Source: Cyanobacteria bacterium FACHB-63 (GTDB taxonomy: Bacteria > Cyanobacteriota > Cyanobacteriia > Leptolyngbyales > Leptolyngbyaceae). Taken from it: a stretch of 64,000 nucleotides of DNA. Of this stretch, positions 5,541 through 48,705 are shown piece by piece. The stretch spans positions 434,001 to 498,000 of the forward strand of contig JACJNX010000061.1 of NCBI GenBank assembly GCA_014695255.1. Reading direction: 5' to 3'. A model generated the notes under the pieces. It worked only from the letters and a program-made list of their open reading frames with translations. It did no database searches and had not been told where the DNA came from. Made by a program: the position numbers and the translations under genes. Positions within the stretch are counted from its first letter, which is position 1; each line of letters begins with the position of its first letter.

Positions 5541-5667
5541 TGCTGCGTTTTGGGTTGATCGGTGCCCCCTAAATCCCCCACGAGTGGGGACTTTGAAGGA
5601 CGGAGTTTCTCCTTAATGTAGGAAATTCTTTCTCTCTAAGTTCCACTCATGGGGATTGGGGAGGCAA
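5541..5667. repeat. Inverted pair of the GCCCCCTAAATC element (MITE-like)
   Basis: A reverse-oriented copy of the dispersed element (5541-5596, with GCCCCCTAAATCCCCCACG and ACTTTGA) faces a diverged forward copy (5636-5667, ending GGATTGGGGAGGC). The two arms pair imperfectly over about 45 nt around a short centre near 5617, giving one large hairpin of roughly 105 nt in the opcA-cobB gap. Its terminal inverted repeats and size suggest a miniature mobile element or a transcript-end structure. Confidence 0.75.
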
Positions 5668-5725: not shown

Positions 5726-7087
5726 ATGGCGTTTGTAATTGCAGGGGAACGGAGCGGAGCCGGGAAAACAACAGTCACGCTGGCGCTATTAGCGGCCCTG
5801 AGACGGCGAAATTTACAGGTACGATCGTTTAAGGTTGGGCCGGATTATATTGATCCGATGTTTCATCGCCATGTCACAGGTCAGGCTTGTTACAACCTTG
5901 ATCCGAGGCTCACTTCGGAAGCGTATGTGCAGCAGTGTTTTTCCCAAAAGGCAGGAAATTGCGCGATCGTCGAAGGCGTGATGGGTCTATTCGATGGTGC
6001 AGCCGGACAAAAAGATTTCGCCAGTACCGCTCACATTGCTCGTCTGCTCGATTTACCGATTTTACTGGTGGTCGATTGTAGTCGATTGTCCTATTCTGTA
6101 GCCGCGATCGTGCATGGATATCGCTCACTCGATTCCCGCTTGAAATTTGCAGGGGTCGTACTGAATCGAGTTGGCAGCGATCGACATTTAGAATTGCTCA
6201 AATCTGCTCTAGAACCGTTAGAAATTCCGATTTTAGGAGTATTGCGGCGACAGGATGCGATCGAAATTCCCGATCGCCATCTCGGTTTAGTTCCGACTGA
6301 CGAACTACCCGGATTAAATGAACTCATCGATCGCTTCGCCCATCTCGGCGAGACCTGTTTCGATTGGACAGCATTAATGCCCCTAGCTTCCGTTCAAAGT
6401 CCCCCACTTGTGGAGGATTTAGGGGGCAGCGACCCACCCAACCGCAGCCAAACTTATCGAATCGCGATCGCCCGTGATGCCGCCTTCAATTTCTATTACG
6501 AAGAGAATCTAGAACTCCTCAAGCAATCCGGCGCAAACCTGATTGAATGGAGTCCTCTAAACGACAATTTCCCTGAAGACATCGACGGTTTGTACTTCGG
6601 TGGCGGCTTTCCTGAAATGTTTGCCGCAACGCTAAGCGAAAATCAAACCACACGTAAAGTCATCCAAACTGCAATTCGATCGGGAATGCCGACGTATGCA
6701 GAATGTGGTGGATTAATGTATCTGAGTGAAAACATTGTGGATTTCTCCGGCGATGCTTTTCCAATGGTCGGAGCAATTCATACTACAACAGTTATGGGAT
6801 CGCGTCTGACACTCGGCTATCGTCGCGGAATTGCACTAGGAGATACCCCGATCGTCGCTCAAGATACGATCGTTCACGGACACGAATTCCATCGCTCAAC
6901 CCCCACCTGCTCACCGCCTCACCCCCTATTCCAATTCACAGAAACTGAGCAATTCGACGGCTGGCGATCGCCCAACTTACACGCCTCCTACCTGCACTTA
7001 CACTGGGGCGCAACTCCAGAAATTCCCCAACGCTTTGTACAGCACTGCGCTAAATTCAACCGCGATCGCTATCCTAAAAAAGAATAG
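5726..7087 (+). CDS. cobB: Cobyrinate a,c-diamide synthase
   Basis: Amidates the a and c carboxylates of cobyrinic acid with glutamine and ATP in cobalamin (or pseudocobalamin) synthesis. The 453-aa protein has an N-terminal P-loop GERSGAGKTTVTLAL (about 7-21) and a C-terminal class I glutamine amidotransferase domain with the nucleophile in YAECGGLMYLS (Cys near 327) and a late His in HGHEFHRS. Residues about 223-241 (SPPLVEDLGGSDPPN) are encoded by a copy of a dispersed palindromic repeat in the linker between the two domains. AAGG precedes the ATG closely. Confidence 0.92.
   Translation: MAFVIAGERSGAGKTTVTLALLAALRRRNLQVRSFKVGPDYIDPMFHRHVTGQACYNLDPRLTSEAYVQQCFSQKAGNCAIVEGVMGLFDGAAGQKDFASTAHIARLLDLPILLVVDCSRLSYSVAAIVHGYRSLDSRLKFAGVVLNRVGSDRHLELLKSALEPLEIPILGVLRRQDAIEIPDRHLGLVPTDELPGLNELIDRFAHLGETCFDWTALMPLASVQSPPLVEDLGGSDPPNRSQTYRIAIARDAAFNFYYEENLELLKQSGANLIEWSPLNDNFPEDIDGLYFGGGFPEMFAATLSENQTTRKVIQTAIRSGMPTYAECGGLMYLSENIVDFSGDAFPMVGAIHTTTVMGSRLTLGYRRGIALGDTPIVAQDTIVHGHEFHRSTPTCSPPHPLFQFTETEQFDGWRSPNLHASYLHLHWGATPEIPQRFVQHCAKFNRDRYPKKE
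6394..6449 (+). repeat. Dispersed element copy inside cobB, in frame
   Basis: TCAAAGTCCCCCACTTGTGG followed by AGGATTTAGGGGGCAGCG and ACCCACCCAA matches the intergenic copy at 36605-36660 over about 50 nt with few differences. It lies in the inter-domain linker of cobB and leaves the reading frame open. Confidence 0.85.
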
Positions 7088-24558: not shown

Positions 24559-25332
24559 ATGTGTCGTTTGCTTGGTTATTTAGGGCAGCCTGTTTTACTC
24601 GATCGCTTAGTTTCTCAATCGGATCATTCTCTGGTTGTGCAGAGCTATCAACCGAAAGAAATGACGGCGGGCTTGATGAATGCTGATGGCTTTGGGGTCG
24701 GTTGGTATCGGGAAACTGAAGCGTTTATGTATCGCAACACCTTACCGATTTGGAGTGATGTGAACTTGCAAAGTTTAAGTCGGTACGTTGAATCGGGCTG
24801 TGTGTTGGCAAATGTCCGGAGCGCAACGGCTGGACTTGCGACAGATTTGAGTAACTGTCAGCCCTTTCAGTACGATTCGATCTTAGGGCTTCACAACGGA
24901 TTTATTCAGGATTTTCGCAAAACGCTGTATCGTCCGCTGCGCGATCGTCTTAGCGACGTTGCCTATGAATTAATCCAAGGACTGACGGATTCAGAGCATC
25001 TTTTTGCAACAGTGATTAATGAGCTAGAAACGAGCGCGAATTTAACCGAAGCGCTGCATCGTACTTTGAAGGTGCTGACTGAACTGGGTGAAAAACATCA
25101 AGTTCCTTTCTCGGCAAACCTAATACTGAGTGATGGCAATCAGTTGGTCGCATCTCGTTATGCTCAGGGAGTTCCGACTCCCACGCTTTATTATCTGGTG
25201 AATGACTCGAATTTTCCGCAGTCGGTGCTCGTTGCATCTGAGCCACTCTTCGAGGGAAATTGGAAAGCATTAAGCGATCGCTGTTTGTTAACTGTAGATG
25301 ATGATTTCGAGCCAACCATTACTTCTATCTGA
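24559..25332 (+). CDS. egtC: Ergothioneine biosynthesis amidohydrolase EgtC
   Basis: Removes the glutamyl group from gamma-glutamyl hercynylcysteine sulfoxide. The 257-aa protein is a class II glutamine-amidotransferase fold with the N-terminal nucleophile Cys2 (MCRLLGYLG), NADGFGVGWY near 34-43, VLANVRSATAG near 82-92 and the QPFQYDSILGLHNGFI loop near 100-115. Its presence implies that the sulfur donor is gamma-glutamylcysteine, as in the mycobacterial route. Its 3' end overlaps egtB by 35 nt, so translation is probably coupled. Confidence 0.9.
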   Translation: MCRLLGYLGQPVLLDRLVSQSDHSLVVQSYQPKEMTAGLMNADGFGVGWYRETEAFMYRNTLPIWSDVNLQSLSRYVESGCVLANVRSATAGLATDLSNCQPFQYDSILGLHNGFIQDFRKTLYRPLRDRLSDVAYELIQGLTDSEHLFATVINELETSANLTEALHRTLKVLTELGEKHQVPFSANLILSDGNQLVASRYAQGVPTPTLYYLVNDSNFPQSVLVASEPLFEGNWKALSDRCLLTVDDDFEPTITSI

Positions 25333-26452
25333 GTTGCGACACTCGATGCAGCAGTGTCGGTCGAGAACCCTAGCGCTAGTTGAATCGATTGACTACAACA
25401 CTTTTTGCACTCAGGCGCACCCGGACTTCAGCCCGATCGGGTGGCATCTGGGACATATTGCTTACACCGAGGCGCTGTGGATTTTGCAGCGATGTGCAGG
25501 TTATCCGCCGTTGCTGCCTGAATATCATCGATTGTTTGCTCAGGATGGATTGCCAAAAAGCGATCGCGTTCGATTACCCGAAATTGAGACGGTCGTTGAA
25601 TATTTGGCAACAGTGAGAGCAAAAGTGTTTGATTATTTGGCGATCGCGCCTGTCGATGAGCAGGAGCGGTTGTGGAAATGGTTACTGCAACATGAGTGTC
25701 AACACGCGGAAACAATGGCGATCGTGCTTGCGCTGATCGGGCGTGCTGCGGTTAGAGATCTCGGAAGCCCCCTAAATCCACGCCACTTGCTTCAAGTCGG
25801 GGAACCCGCCCAACGTAGTGGCTCACCACTCGTGGGGGACTTTGAAAGCGAGATGATTTTGATTCCGGGGGGTTCTTTTATTCAGGGAAATGAGGAGATC
25901 GAAGCACAGGATAATGAACGACCCCAGCACGAAGTCTATTTAGAGGCATATTGGATCGATCAACATCCAGTGACTTGTGCGGAATATCGATCGTTTATTG
26001 AAGCGGGCGGCTATCAGAATCGGGAGTGGTGGACAGCAGAGGGATGGGAATGGGTTCGGAATAGCGGAATTGATCGTCCGTTGTATTGGAGTGCAGACAA
26101 TATTCCGGTTTGTGGCGTGAGCTGGTATGAAGCGGACGCTTATGCGAAATTTGTAGGAAAACGATTGCCAACCGAAGCCGAGTGGGAAAAAGCGGCTGCA
26201 TTTCAGAATATGCTAGGTGAGGTTTGGCAGTGGACATCGACCTGGTTTGATGGATATTCAGGCTTTGAGAGCTATCCGTATCCGGGATATTCTCAAACCT
26301 ATTTCGATCGAGCGCATCGCGTTCTCAAGGGCGGAAGTTGGGCAACTTTCGCGTGGGCAATGCGAAACAGCTTCCGAAACTGGTATTATCCGCAGGTTCG
26401 GGAGATTTTTTCAGGGTTTCGCTGTGTTTGTTCGGCTGGTGTAAGGAGTTAG
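25298..26452 (+). CDS. egtB: Ergothioneine sulfoxide synthase EgtB
   Basis: Non-haem iron enzyme joining hercynine and the thiol donor with O2. 384 aa with an N-terminal DinB-like domain (GWHLGHIAYTEALW near 44-57 and the iron-site motif HECQHAE near 132-138) and a C-terminal formylglycine-enzyme-like domain from about 187 (MILIPGGSFIQGNEE, GVSWYEADAYAKFVGKRLPT, GEVWQWTSTWF, RVLKGGSWATF, SGFRCV). Residues about 157-183 in the inter-domain linker are encoded by a copy of the dispersed palindromic element. The start at 25298 or the next ATG at 25301 lies inside egtC. Confidence 0.92.
   Translation: MMISSQPLLLSELRHSMQQCRSRTLALVESIDYNTFCTQAHPDFSPIGWHLGHIAYTEALWILQRCAGYPPLLPEYHRLFAQDGLPKSDRVRLPEIETVVEYLATVRAKVFDYLAIAPVDEQERLWKWLLQHECQHAETMAIVLALIGRAAVRDLGSPLNPRHLLQVGEPAQRSGSPLVGDFESEMILIPGGSFIQGNEEIEAQDNERPQHEVYLEAYWIDQHPVTCAEYRSFIEAGGYQNREWWTAEGWEWVRNSGIDRPLYWSADNIPVCGVSWYEADAYAKFVGKRLPTEAEWEKAAAFQNMLGEVWQWTSTWFDGYSGFESYPYPGYSQTYFDRAHRVLKGGSWATFAWAMRNSFRNWYYPQVREIFSGFRCVCSAGVRS
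25767..25845. repeat. Dispersed element copy inside egtB, in frame
   Basis: Starts GCCCCCTAAATCCACG and ends CCACTCGTGGGGGACTTTGA, the reverse orientation of the element. About 35 nt of extra sequence bounded by CCACT / AGTGG sits in its centre. The whole stretch is open in the egtB frame and encodes the linker between its two domains. Confidence 0.85.
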
Positions 26453-26454
26453 TT

Positions 26455-27468
26455 GTGTCGCAGAATTCTAGTGCGTTGGATCGCGTTCATCTCGTTTATC
26501 TCGTCGATCGCTCCCTTCCTTCTGAAGACGAGCTACATCCGGGAAGTGATGTTATACGCGGATTGAGTCAAGCACCCAAAACCTTGCCGCCGCGATATTT
26601 CTATGACGATCGCGGCTCTCAGCTATTTGAGCAGATTACCGAACTGCCAGAATATTATCTGACTCGAACTGAAACAGAAATTCTCAAAGCTTGTGCGCCC
26701 GAAATTGTTCAGATTACCGGAGCTTGCGAACTGATTGAACTCGGTAGCGGCAATTCAACCAAAACGCGAATTTTGCTGGATGCCTATCGATCGGCGGATT
26801 ATCCTTTGGTGTATTGCCCGATCGACATCAGCGCTGGAATTCTTGAAAGTAGCGCTCAAAGCCTGTTGTCGGATTACCCAACCCTTGAAGTTTATGGGCT
26901 AGTCGGAACCTACGAACAGGCACTGGAAAAACTTCCGCAAACTCATCTTCAAAGTCGAATGATCGGGTTTATCGGCAGCACATTAGGAAATTTGAACCCG
27001 CAGGAATGCGATATTTTTCTTGATCAAATTGCAAATGCGCTGAAGCCGAAACAATATTTTCTACTCGGAATTGATTTACATAAATCCACTGCCCAACTCG
27101 AAGCAGCGTATAACGATCGCCAAGGCGTGACAGCAGAATTTAACCTAAATATGCTGCGGCATTTGAACCAGCGGTTTCAGGGTGATTTTGATTTAACTCA
27201 GTTTCAGCACGTCGCCATTTATAACGAAAGCGAGCGACAAATTGAGATGCACTTACGGAGTTTGCGATCGCAAATCGTTCATCTGAAGACATTAGATTTA
27301 ACCGTCGAATTTTCAGCCGGAGAAACGATTTTAAGTGAAATCTCGCGCAAGTTTGATCTCGATCAAACGAAACAGCTTCTAAGCACAAAAAAATTAGACT
27401 GTGTTCGCGTCTGGACAGATTCCGCGCAAGCCTTTGCCGTTCTGCTCTGTCAGCGAATTCTTGGTTAG
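26455..27468 (+). CDS. egtD: L-histidine N-alpha-methyltransferase EgtD
   Basis: SAM-dependent trimethylation of histidine to hercynine, the first step of ergothioneine synthesis. 337 aa from the GTG at 26455, which sits 2 nt after the egtB stop and 6 nt after AAGGAG; upstream codons of the open frame lie inside egtB and are not part of it. Landmarks: PPRYFYDDRGSQLFEQITEL near 43-62, YYLTRTETEIL, the SAM motif LIELGSGNSTKTRILL near 95-110, and LGSTLGNLNPQE near 175. This organisation gives egtC-egtB-egtD as one operon. Confidence 0.93.
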   Translation: MSQNSSALDRVHLVYLVDRSLPSEDELHPGSDVIRGLSQAPKTLPPRYFYDDRGSQLFEQITELPEYYLTRTETEILKACAPEIVQITGACELIELGSGNSTKTRILLDAYRSADYPLVYCPIDISAGILESSAQSLLSDYPTLEVYGLVGTYEQALEKLPQTHLQSRMIGFIGSTLGNLNPQECDIFLDQIANALKPKQYFLLGIDLHKSTAQLEAAYNDRQGVTAEFNLNMLRHLNQRFQGDFDLTQFQHVAIYNESERQIEMHLRSLRSQIVHLKTLDLTVEFSAGETILSEISRKFDLDQTKQLLSTKKLDCVRVWTDSAQAFAVLLCQRILG

Positions 27469-36489: not shown

Positions 36490-36660
36490 GGTCTGCTCCC
36501 TAAATCCCCAGCCAGAAACTTTGAGCAAAATGCTTTAACCTCCTAAGAAGCATCACTCAGCTTTAACGCCAAGAATGCTCCTACAGTCGATCAATTCCTC
36601 TATCTCAAAGTCCCCCACTCGTGGGGGATTTAGGGGGCAGCAACCCACCCAAAACGAAGC
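36490..36660. repeat. Inverted pair of the dispersed element between tldD and pmbA
   Basis: A diverged reverse copy (36490-36524, GCTCCCTAAATCCCC ... ACTTTGA) and a well-preserved forward copy (36605-36660, TCAAAGTCCCCCACTCGTGG ... GATTTAGGGGGCAGCA) flank about 80 nt. The arrangement, with GGGGGC ends outward, is the same as at 5541-5667. Confidence 0.8.
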
Positions 36661-47598: not shown

Positions 47599-48705
47599 AT
47601 GCTGCTTCAGAAGTCCCGGTTATCTGTGCTTAAATCCGTACTTTTGCTACTGATTGGACTTGGATTAGTCATCGGTATTAGGCATCTTGGGCAACCGTCG
47701 TCGATCGACCTATCTTTCCATTCCCTGCTTTTTCTTTTAGGACTTGGGGTACTGGCGATCGCTTACGGGCTGCGCTCTACACTTCTGGGGATCTTGGCAA
47801 TTCTTTTCACTGGACTGGGTTACTGGAGCGGATGGAGTGAGACTTATTTAAATCCTGAATCATCGCTCATTGACCAAATCAGGCTGCAAATGCCGATCGT
47901 CGCTGCGATTTTGTTTTTCCCCTTGGCGTATCGGTGTCGATCTGGAATCCTGTTTGGATTGAGCGCGATCGCGGTTTGCTCGGCATTAATCAGCAGCTTG
48001 GCTGAGATTGTGACTAAAGGAAGCGTGTTACCGCCTTTGGTGCTGGGTCTTCCTGCTGCGTTGTTGTGGTCGTATGACGATGCAATCTGGACGCTGGGGC
48101 GGCAAGAAAAGCGGTTTCAGCCGATCGCTCGTCGGTTGGCGATGCTGTATTTGAGCGGACTGTTTTTTTGCCTGTCGTTTCAGTGGACTTGGGGGAATCA
48201 TGCTTGGTACAGCATTCTTTCCGGTTGGCGATCGCTTCCTAGTGTGGTGTTTCTGGCGGCGATCGCGATCGGGCAATGGCTCTATCTATTAATTGCAATG
48301 CGGAGATGCAATTGGCAGACGATTACGATCGGCTCGATGATTGCGCTGTATGGAATCGTTCAGATTTGGCATCTCCGAGTGCAGCCGATTCCACTCTTTG
48401 CGGTGATCGTGTTCAATCTAATGCTTGCTATGTTGTCGATCGTGACGATACGCAACAGCTTGCAAACCGGAGAGCGATGGACGTTCTGGTCTGGAATAAC
48501 GTTTCTAATTTTGCAGATTTTGAGCCGCGCTCTAGAGTATGACTTACCCCTACGATCGCTGATTTTTGCATTATGTGGAACGGGCGCGATCTCGTCAGGT
48601 CTTTGGTTTGAGCGCTACCGTCTGCGATCGCTCTCAAAGTTCCCCAGAATGGAGGATTTAGGCGGCACCCAATCGATCGCATCAAAGCAGAAAATCTCCG
48701 TCTAA
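47599..48705 (+). CDS. Polytopic membrane protein of unknown function
   Basis: 368 aa with about 9-10 hydrophobic segments spread evenly (LLLLIGLGLVIGI, LLFLLGLGVLAIAYGL, TLLGILAILFTGLGYWSG and so on) and few polar loops. No motif is recognised. The C-terminal tail (residues about 346-357, SKFPRMEDLGGT) is encoded by a copy of the dispersed palindromic element. The stop overlaps the stop of the convergent ATPase gene by 4 nt (CTAA). Confidence 0.75.
   Translation: MLLQKSRLSVLKSVLLLLIGLGLVIGIRHLGQPSSIDLSFHSLLFLLGLGVLAIAYGLRSTLLGILAILFTGLGYWSGWSETYLNPESSLIDQIRLQMPIVAAILFFPLAYRCRSGILFGLSAIAVCSALISSLAEIVTKGSVLPPLVLGLPAALLWSYDDAIWTLGRQEKRFQPIARRLAMLYLSGLFFCLSFQWTWGNHAWYSILSGWRSLPSVVFLAAIAIGQWLYLLIAMRRCNWQTITIGSMIALYGIVQIWHLRVQPIPLFAVIVFNLMLAMLSIVTIRNSLQTGERWTFWSGITFLILQILSRALEYDLPLRSLIFALCGTGAISSGLWFERYRLRSLSKFPRMEDLGGTQSIASKQKISV
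48634..48670 (+). repeat. Diverged dispersed-element copy in a C-terminal coding tail
   Basis: TCAAAGTTCCCCAGAATGGA then GGATTTAGGCGGCACCC aligns with the forward element (TCAAAGTCCCCCAC...GATTTAGGGGGCA). It is read in the same frame over GGATTTAGG as the cobB copy (EDLGG). Confidence 0.7.

Follow-up and report, generated by a model that had tools for sequence, protein, structure and literature searches.

A 45-nucleotide hairpin repeat nested within a dispersed hairpin repeat in the EgtB linker of a cyanobacterium

Introduction

Among the systems closest to the repeats described here are the RPE of Rickettsia, palindromic elements of 105–146 bp that occur between genes as well as in frame in conserved proteins, with the enzyme still working (PMC2229807, PMC3733652). 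The repeats of the present study are likewise palindromic and are found in intergenic DNA and in frame in conserved genes, but they measure 34 and 45 nt, are cyanobacterial, and lie one nested in the other. REP sequences offer another comparison, and their doublets are termed REPINs (PMC3116915). The outer of our two repeats resembles the REP, REPIN and BIME class in being a short, high-copy hairpin that also forms inverted doublets (in G004 and G007); it differs from REPs with a RAYT in that its window copies, inspected by eye, have neither GTAG nor CGTC as a tag at the hairpin foot. Finally, insertion sequences that insert specifically into palindromic REPs have been described (PMC1525189). 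The inner repeat shares with them the location of a mobile unit within another palindromic repeat, but is 45 nt long and gene-free. Unlike MITEs, it comes without a target-site duplication, as seen at an intein site and at locus L078 (see below).

Tandem repeats of cyanobacterial genomes are known as STRR. Repeats of the STRR type form tandem arrays, whereas the present elements are hairpin insertions; a point of contact is that tandem repeats also sit in other EgtB linkers (e.g., L042, L043, and L066). Elhai et al. 2008 reportedly deals with very small mobile repeats in cyanobacterial genomes, as the title of that work conveys. The inner unit probably belongs to this kind of small dispersed repeats and, likened by title only, may already be listed there. 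For repeats in EgtB linkers, or for the nesting of one repeat in another, no description was found in the open literature at the level of titles and abstract openings.

Here, we analyze a composite element in egtB of Cyanobacteria bacterium FACHB-63, located in a 64,000-nt stretch of contig JACJNX010000061.1 (the window, i.e., the whole stretch of DNA that was analyzed). Two non-autonomous hairpin repeats are very probably stacked in the EgtB linker, the inner one inserted into a resident outer repeat, and tolerated there. Genomes, loci, and taxonomic families are denoted below by G, L, and f numbers.

Results

A composite element in the linker of EgtB

The element lies in an ORF whose product matches DinB_2 (residues 18–140) and FGE-sulfatase (best stretch 184–301) in Pfam (Table 1). 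With 320.6 bits, TIGR03440 stays below its curated cut-off of 360; the gene is therefore named egtB because of its neighbors egtC and egtD, which are both above cut-off, and because of its fold. The closest solved structure to the AlphaFold model (mean pLDDT 89; 35 sequences) is that of EgtB (4x8b; TM 0.82). Residues H53, H132, and H136, which we take to form the iron site, are invariant across the 35 EgtB sequences of the alignment. Outside the linker, comparison of the window egtB with that of the related genome G006 yields a dN/dS of 0.082 over 349 codons, which indicates, at the level of sequence, that this part of the gene is under purifying selection.

The original prediction held that a repeat with a nested insert occupies the segment between the DinB-like and FGE-like domains. 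We find the element to be real at 25767–25845, with exactly these ends, between the two domains and with the reading frame open across its whole length. The insert had been thought to comprise some 35 nt bounded by CCACT and AGTGG; these motifs turn out to be the internal stem of a 45-nt insert (15 codons), which is preceded by ACG and followed by CTC. The surrounding outer repeat measures 34 nt (CCCCCTAAATCCCCC-core-GGGGGACTTTGA), and the inner unit is unrelated to it. The structure prediction proposed for the linker gave low confidence: runs of at least three residues with a pLDDT below 50 are found at 159–161 and 166–182, both inside the composite element. Overall, EgtB looks functional by prediction, with the inserted residues apparently tolerated.

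Folded as single-stranded DNA, the 80-nt stretch adopts a mixed structure with a z of only −2.4. A known RNA family is ruled out for the element, as no Rfam family matches within 25600–26000 at E up to 1. The inner unit is free of stop codons in five of its six frames, which by our estimate is unremarkable for 45 nt.

Table 1. Coordinates of egtB, its neighbors, and the hairpin repeats in the window.
Feature	Position	Strand	Basis
Outer copy, not under any ORF of at least 60 aa	5565..5596	+	
Outer copy within the CobB reading frame, between CbiA (4–186) and GATase_3 (245–429)	6394..6426	-	
egtC neighbor	24559..25332	+	TIGR03442 above cut-off
egtB, 384 aa	25298..26452	+	ORF; DinB_2 and FGE-sulfatase matches; fold like 4x8b
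Composite of the outer hairpin repeat and its nested insert, EgtB residues 157–183, 79 nt	25767..25845	+	
Outer repeat, left part, GCCCCCTAAATCC	25767..25779	+	
Inner 45-nt hairpin unit, ACG..CTC	25780..25824	+	Missing in G006; family and covariation; ends from intein and L078 sites
Outer repeat, right part, ACCACTCGTGGGGGACTTTGA, with A instead of C at its first base	25825..25845	+	
egtD neighbor, ORF as listed, true start further in	26338..27468	+	TIGR03438 above cut-off
Outer copy, not under any ORF of at least 60 aa	36605..36637	-	
Diverged copy, CCCCCTAAAT arms facing each other, not under any ORF of at least 60 aa	43157..43191	.	
Diverged outer copy, C-terminal end of ORF 47599–48705 (no Pfam match)	48634..48665	-	

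Filled and empty linker sites

The nesting of one repeat within another, as originally proposed, is borne out by the sister genome G006, which carries the plain outer repeat without the inner insert at the identical place in the linker, so that the two genomes provide a filled and an empty site. Their EgtB proteins are 95% identical (alignment A2, which includes L067 and L068 and leaves out L066 and L178–L185), and the two genomes are sisters with a local support of 1.000 in a FastTree phylogeny from which the linker columns had been removed. At the insert site, the linker of the window egtB has 45 bases more than that of G006; an additional codon of G006 further downstream reduces the difference between the proteins to 14 residues. 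The outer parts of the window site resemble G006 in both sequence and place. Compared with the same junction elsewhere, one neighboring C reads A in the window and must have mutated.

The genus shows a series of linker states: G005 has no repeat, G004, G006, and G007 have a single repeat, G001 has a single repeat with a 9-nt internal deletion, G002 has two repeats head to head, and the window genome has the nested pair. In the tree, G005, which lacks the outer repeat in the linker, groups with G002, which has two copies, and the history of the outer repeat is thus not one simple gain but involves gain or loss on more than one occasion. A second in-frame outer repeat is seen in the first variable FGE loop of G001 (L061), G007 (L037), and G004 (L038), where it reads SKSPxxGDLGG, near window residue 263; it is missing in the window genome and in G006.

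Conservation of the linker in sequence and length is refuted by the alignment of 35 EgtB homologues, in which this segment spans 13–49 residues with a standard deviation of 10.6, as compared with 2.8 for the DinB domain and 0 to 1.4 for three FGE segments. Two FGE loops are likewise variable (5.6 and 20.6). An exact 9-mer is present at least twice in 13 of the 37 linkers that were read out of 39 (the linker motif missed L065 and L185); the clearest repeats are the tandem in L066 and those of the RRQEA and GVRSQESG type in L043 and L042. The repeated 9-mers and the variety of these repeats indicate that unrelated repeats have entered the EgtB linker in several lineages. The tandem repeat of L066 (Oscillatoriaceae M33_DOE_052) is about 18 residues long (APLSPLVGERGWGIEGEN) and present in about four copies.

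The outer repeat is dispersed through the genus

The outer repeat is dispersed in each of the eight genomes searched within the genus, with strict copies ranging from a single one in G005 to 269 in G003; the window genome has 18 and G006 has 106, while a control with the reversed pattern gave 0. In the window genome, 18 to 40 outer copies would amount to about 1e-4 to 2e-4 of its length. Among the matches listed, head-to-head pairs spaced by approximately 38–40 nt are frequent in G004 and G007. Within the window (Table 1), the stretches 5541–5589, 6394–6441, and 36605–36652 have about 15 further bases in common beyond the hairpin, which implies an extended form of the outer repeat, represented in CobB as well.

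Two in-frame copies in opposite orientations had been put forward, one of them in EgtB. The other, which we take to be the copy in CobB, is indeed reversed and located between CbiA and GATase_3; both stand, but the count is higher, with four more in-frame copies in three genes of the same genome. Altogether, six of 23 outer copies examined in a partial census of this genome are in frame, in five genes, which encode EgtB, CobB, CobN (a doublet), a MenC-like protein, and an AMP-binding protein. The MenC-like copy lies between MenC_N (38–105) and MR_MLE_C (138–322), and those in the AMP-binding protein and CobN fall within domain matches. A seventh copy lies close to the beginning of a GATase_5 ORF, the true start of which is uncertain. 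The CobN doublet comprises two outer repeats head to head (L004, 1430–1532; C138), and the in-frame repeats of the AMP-binding and MenC-like proteins sit in adjoining ORFs (L017, 566–597 and 1501–1532; C105).

Also unlike REPs with a RAYT, the outer hairpin was not found beside a Y1 transposase gene at any of 22 loci in the genus (1.7–3.4 kb each). Across the eight genomes, the number of Y1 genes is unrelated to the number of repeats (0 genes and 106 copies in G006, 4 and 1 in G005, 5 and 269 in G003). A link between the outer repeat and a Y1 transposase of the IS200/RAYT type is thus unsupported.

The inner unit is a conserved hairpin of other cyanobacteria

The original prediction further treated the inner unit as a possible repeat family of its own, which fails for the window genome and holds for other cyanobacteria. 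Searching the window genome with up to three mismatches returned the window copy and one match with three mismatches (reversed control, 1), and a covariance model, of which the window copy is itself a member, returned this copy as its one match (E 4e-15); by both pattern and model, the unit is single-copy and is rejected as a repeat of this genome. Across the phylum, the family is present in 31 of 386 genomes (reversed control, 0), 28 of which belong to family f28, which we infer to be Nostocaceae-like; the maximum is 39 copies in G425. In the window genome's own family, the unit occurs in 3 of 42 genomes by pattern; the covariance model detects it in 5 of the 42, in two of these weakly. One copy from G425 (L140), a genome of another family, equals the window copy at 45 of 46 bases.

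We tested the hairpin on 55 of 59 distinct inner copies (L096, L098, L148, and L153 were dropped as misaligned), all taken as fixed 46-nt windows, which in part accounts for their equal length. In the alignment, 96.9% of the cells are paired, against 87.5% after shuffling, and covariation reaches 0.224, against 0.061; none of 500 shuffles scored as high in both measures, and slid versions of the hairpin were paired at 44% at most. One stem pair occurs as C-G, G-C, U-A, and A-U, and across all 59 copies each of the 14 modeled pairs forms in 48 to 59. The covarying pairs thus mark the inner unit as a conserved hairpin and not a chance stretch. Variants with the same outer stem and another inner hairpin (e.g., CGGAGG-ACA-CCTCCG) are found at L244 and L245.

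Insertion sites of the inner unit

In G425 and G244, the inner unit is located in frame in a large ORF that matches LAGLIDADG_3 and Hom_end above cut-off, with matches to an intein splicing domain and a B12-dependent ribonucleotide reductase below their cut-offs; this ORF is likely an intein of a class II reductase. The corresponding stretch measures 423 nt in all 12 other full-length homologues from the 60 genomes searched (one further match, in G463, covers the end only) and 468 nt in the two filled ones, so exactly 45 nt were gained, with no duplication. The filled proteins read RHLLQVGEPAQRSGS or RHLLQVGKPAQSSGL, in the same frame as in EgtB. At L078 (G343), an outer-type repeat holds the inner unit between its TAAATCC and CCCTTAAAAAGGGGG, again with nothing duplicated, and the plain repeat CTAAATCCCCCTTAAAAAGGGGGACTTTGA is also present in G343. 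The insert site in egtB is the same base as at L078, TAAATCC^CCC of the outer arm.

This junction pattern has 14 matches in 7 of the 388 genomes of the class. After dropping the match in G042, set aside by eye as chance, 13 remain in six genomes from four families, namely f1 (that of the window genome), f25, f28 (three genomes), and f35; they are not uniform, as L244 and L245 contain the other inner hairpin and the match in G125 lies in the other arm. All seven pattern copies of G011 (L131–L137) are similar composites with three kinds of flank, which implies that they multiplied as units or inside larger repeats. Eight composite matches (L247 and L251–L257) come from G079, a genome distant from G011, and the sole pattern match in G003 likewise lies within an outer-type repeat. 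Another kind of hairpin repeat, GTTGGGTTTCGTTCCTCAA^CCCAACCTAC, likewise hosts the inner unit (L085, L168, and L171); with up to three mismatches, copies of this repeat number 135 in G119, 11 in G174, and 27 in G216. These observations fit a preference of the inner unit for other repeats as targets, but some of them are explained by a composite moving in one piece.

Downstream of the insert, base +3 is a C in 57 of 77 sites. When joined, the 77 insertion sites, many of them mutually related and many singly without a hairpin, have a mean folding value of −3.44, compared with −2.41 for 308 control 40-mers (p 1e-4), a modest difference that gives no more than a hint of folding at insertion sites. 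At least 50 open codons on either side flank the unit in 7 of 38 long-flanked copies, a count that includes L084 (a 154-aa ORF), on which we do not rely. A TnpB carries the unit between OrfB_IS605 (179–292) and the TNB domain (325–390), and a GH38 enzyme carries it ahead of the catalytic match. In a DNA methylase, a Uma2 protein, and a helicase, the unit lies within a domain; the matched Helicase_C part starts just past the unit, yet at profile position 37. For inner and outer copies taken together, domain borders are frequent without being a rule.

Discussion

The composite element is most likely selfish hairpin DNA that is tolerated in the linker. The 34-nt outer repeat, dispersed in the genus, occupies the egtB linker in several genomes, and the 45-nt inner hairpin would have inserted in place once this lineage had separated from G006. 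At clean sites elsewhere, the inner unit adds exactly 45 nt with no visible target duplication, so that 15 codons are gained there and the frame is left unshifted. Both elements may be moved, or may formerly have been moved, by an enzyme acting in trans or through the copying of hairpins in single-stranded form, and the inner unit would favor other repeats as targets. Selection against coding damage could then confine most remaining copies to linkers and loops, and EgtB would draw no benefit from its insert.

A different history, in which recombination exchanged the plain outer repeat of egtB for a composite that arrived whole, seems improbable to us. In G011 and G079, whole composites multiply as units, so that the egtB pair may have come in one piece, and all seven pattern matches of G011 together with the one of G003 lie within outer-type repeats; the window genome, however, holds no further composite or inner copy, and the outer parts of its egtB site resemble those of G006 in sequence and place. 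Even less credit is due to the idea that the inserted residues were retained for a benefit to EgtB, for example in domain spacing. Although the insert preserves the frame and unrelated repeats have lengthened the linker in several lineages, linker length is unconserved (13–49 residues), G005 has a linker without any repeat, and model confidence is low over the inserted stretch.

The single inner copy in the window genome might, on its own, point to chance resemblance or an assembly error. This we regard as barely conceivable given the near-identical copy (45 of 46 bases) from a different family, the conserved inner hairpin, and a junction that recurs in other families. The original prediction had also called chance unlikely, and we agree in view of the small share of the genome covered by outer copies (~1e-4 to 2e-4), the E of 4e-15 for the inner unit, and the absence of exactly this piece from G006.

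Under the preferred reading of stacked and tolerated repeats, our results suggest that ordinary enzyme linkers can lengthen through stacked selfish repeats. Presence, doubling, shortening, and nesting of hairpins can all be seen in one linker among close relatives, and for the nesting step the empty site is at hand too. The results also suggest that a 45-nt element can spread via coding DNA because its length equals a whole number of codons. More tentatively, and in our view less likely than not, the inner unit could be a codon-sized mobile peptide cassette, which would enter a fixed base in the arms of other repeats, as well as protein linkers, across cyanobacteria and without target duplication, add 15 residues per jump with the frame unshifted, and find in the nesting within coding repeats a safe way into genes.

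The precise target site provides a handle for finding the enzyme that moves the repeats. Similar flanks surround the inner unit at seven f28 loci (L070, L138, L147, L158, L169, L170, and L088); a transposon may help to spread the unit, L070 being, as the one confirmed case, a TnpB gene. At L183 and L080, where the 45-nt unit sits in an apparent intein that itself sits in a ribonucleotide reductase, the insertions add up to three layers of inserted DNA.
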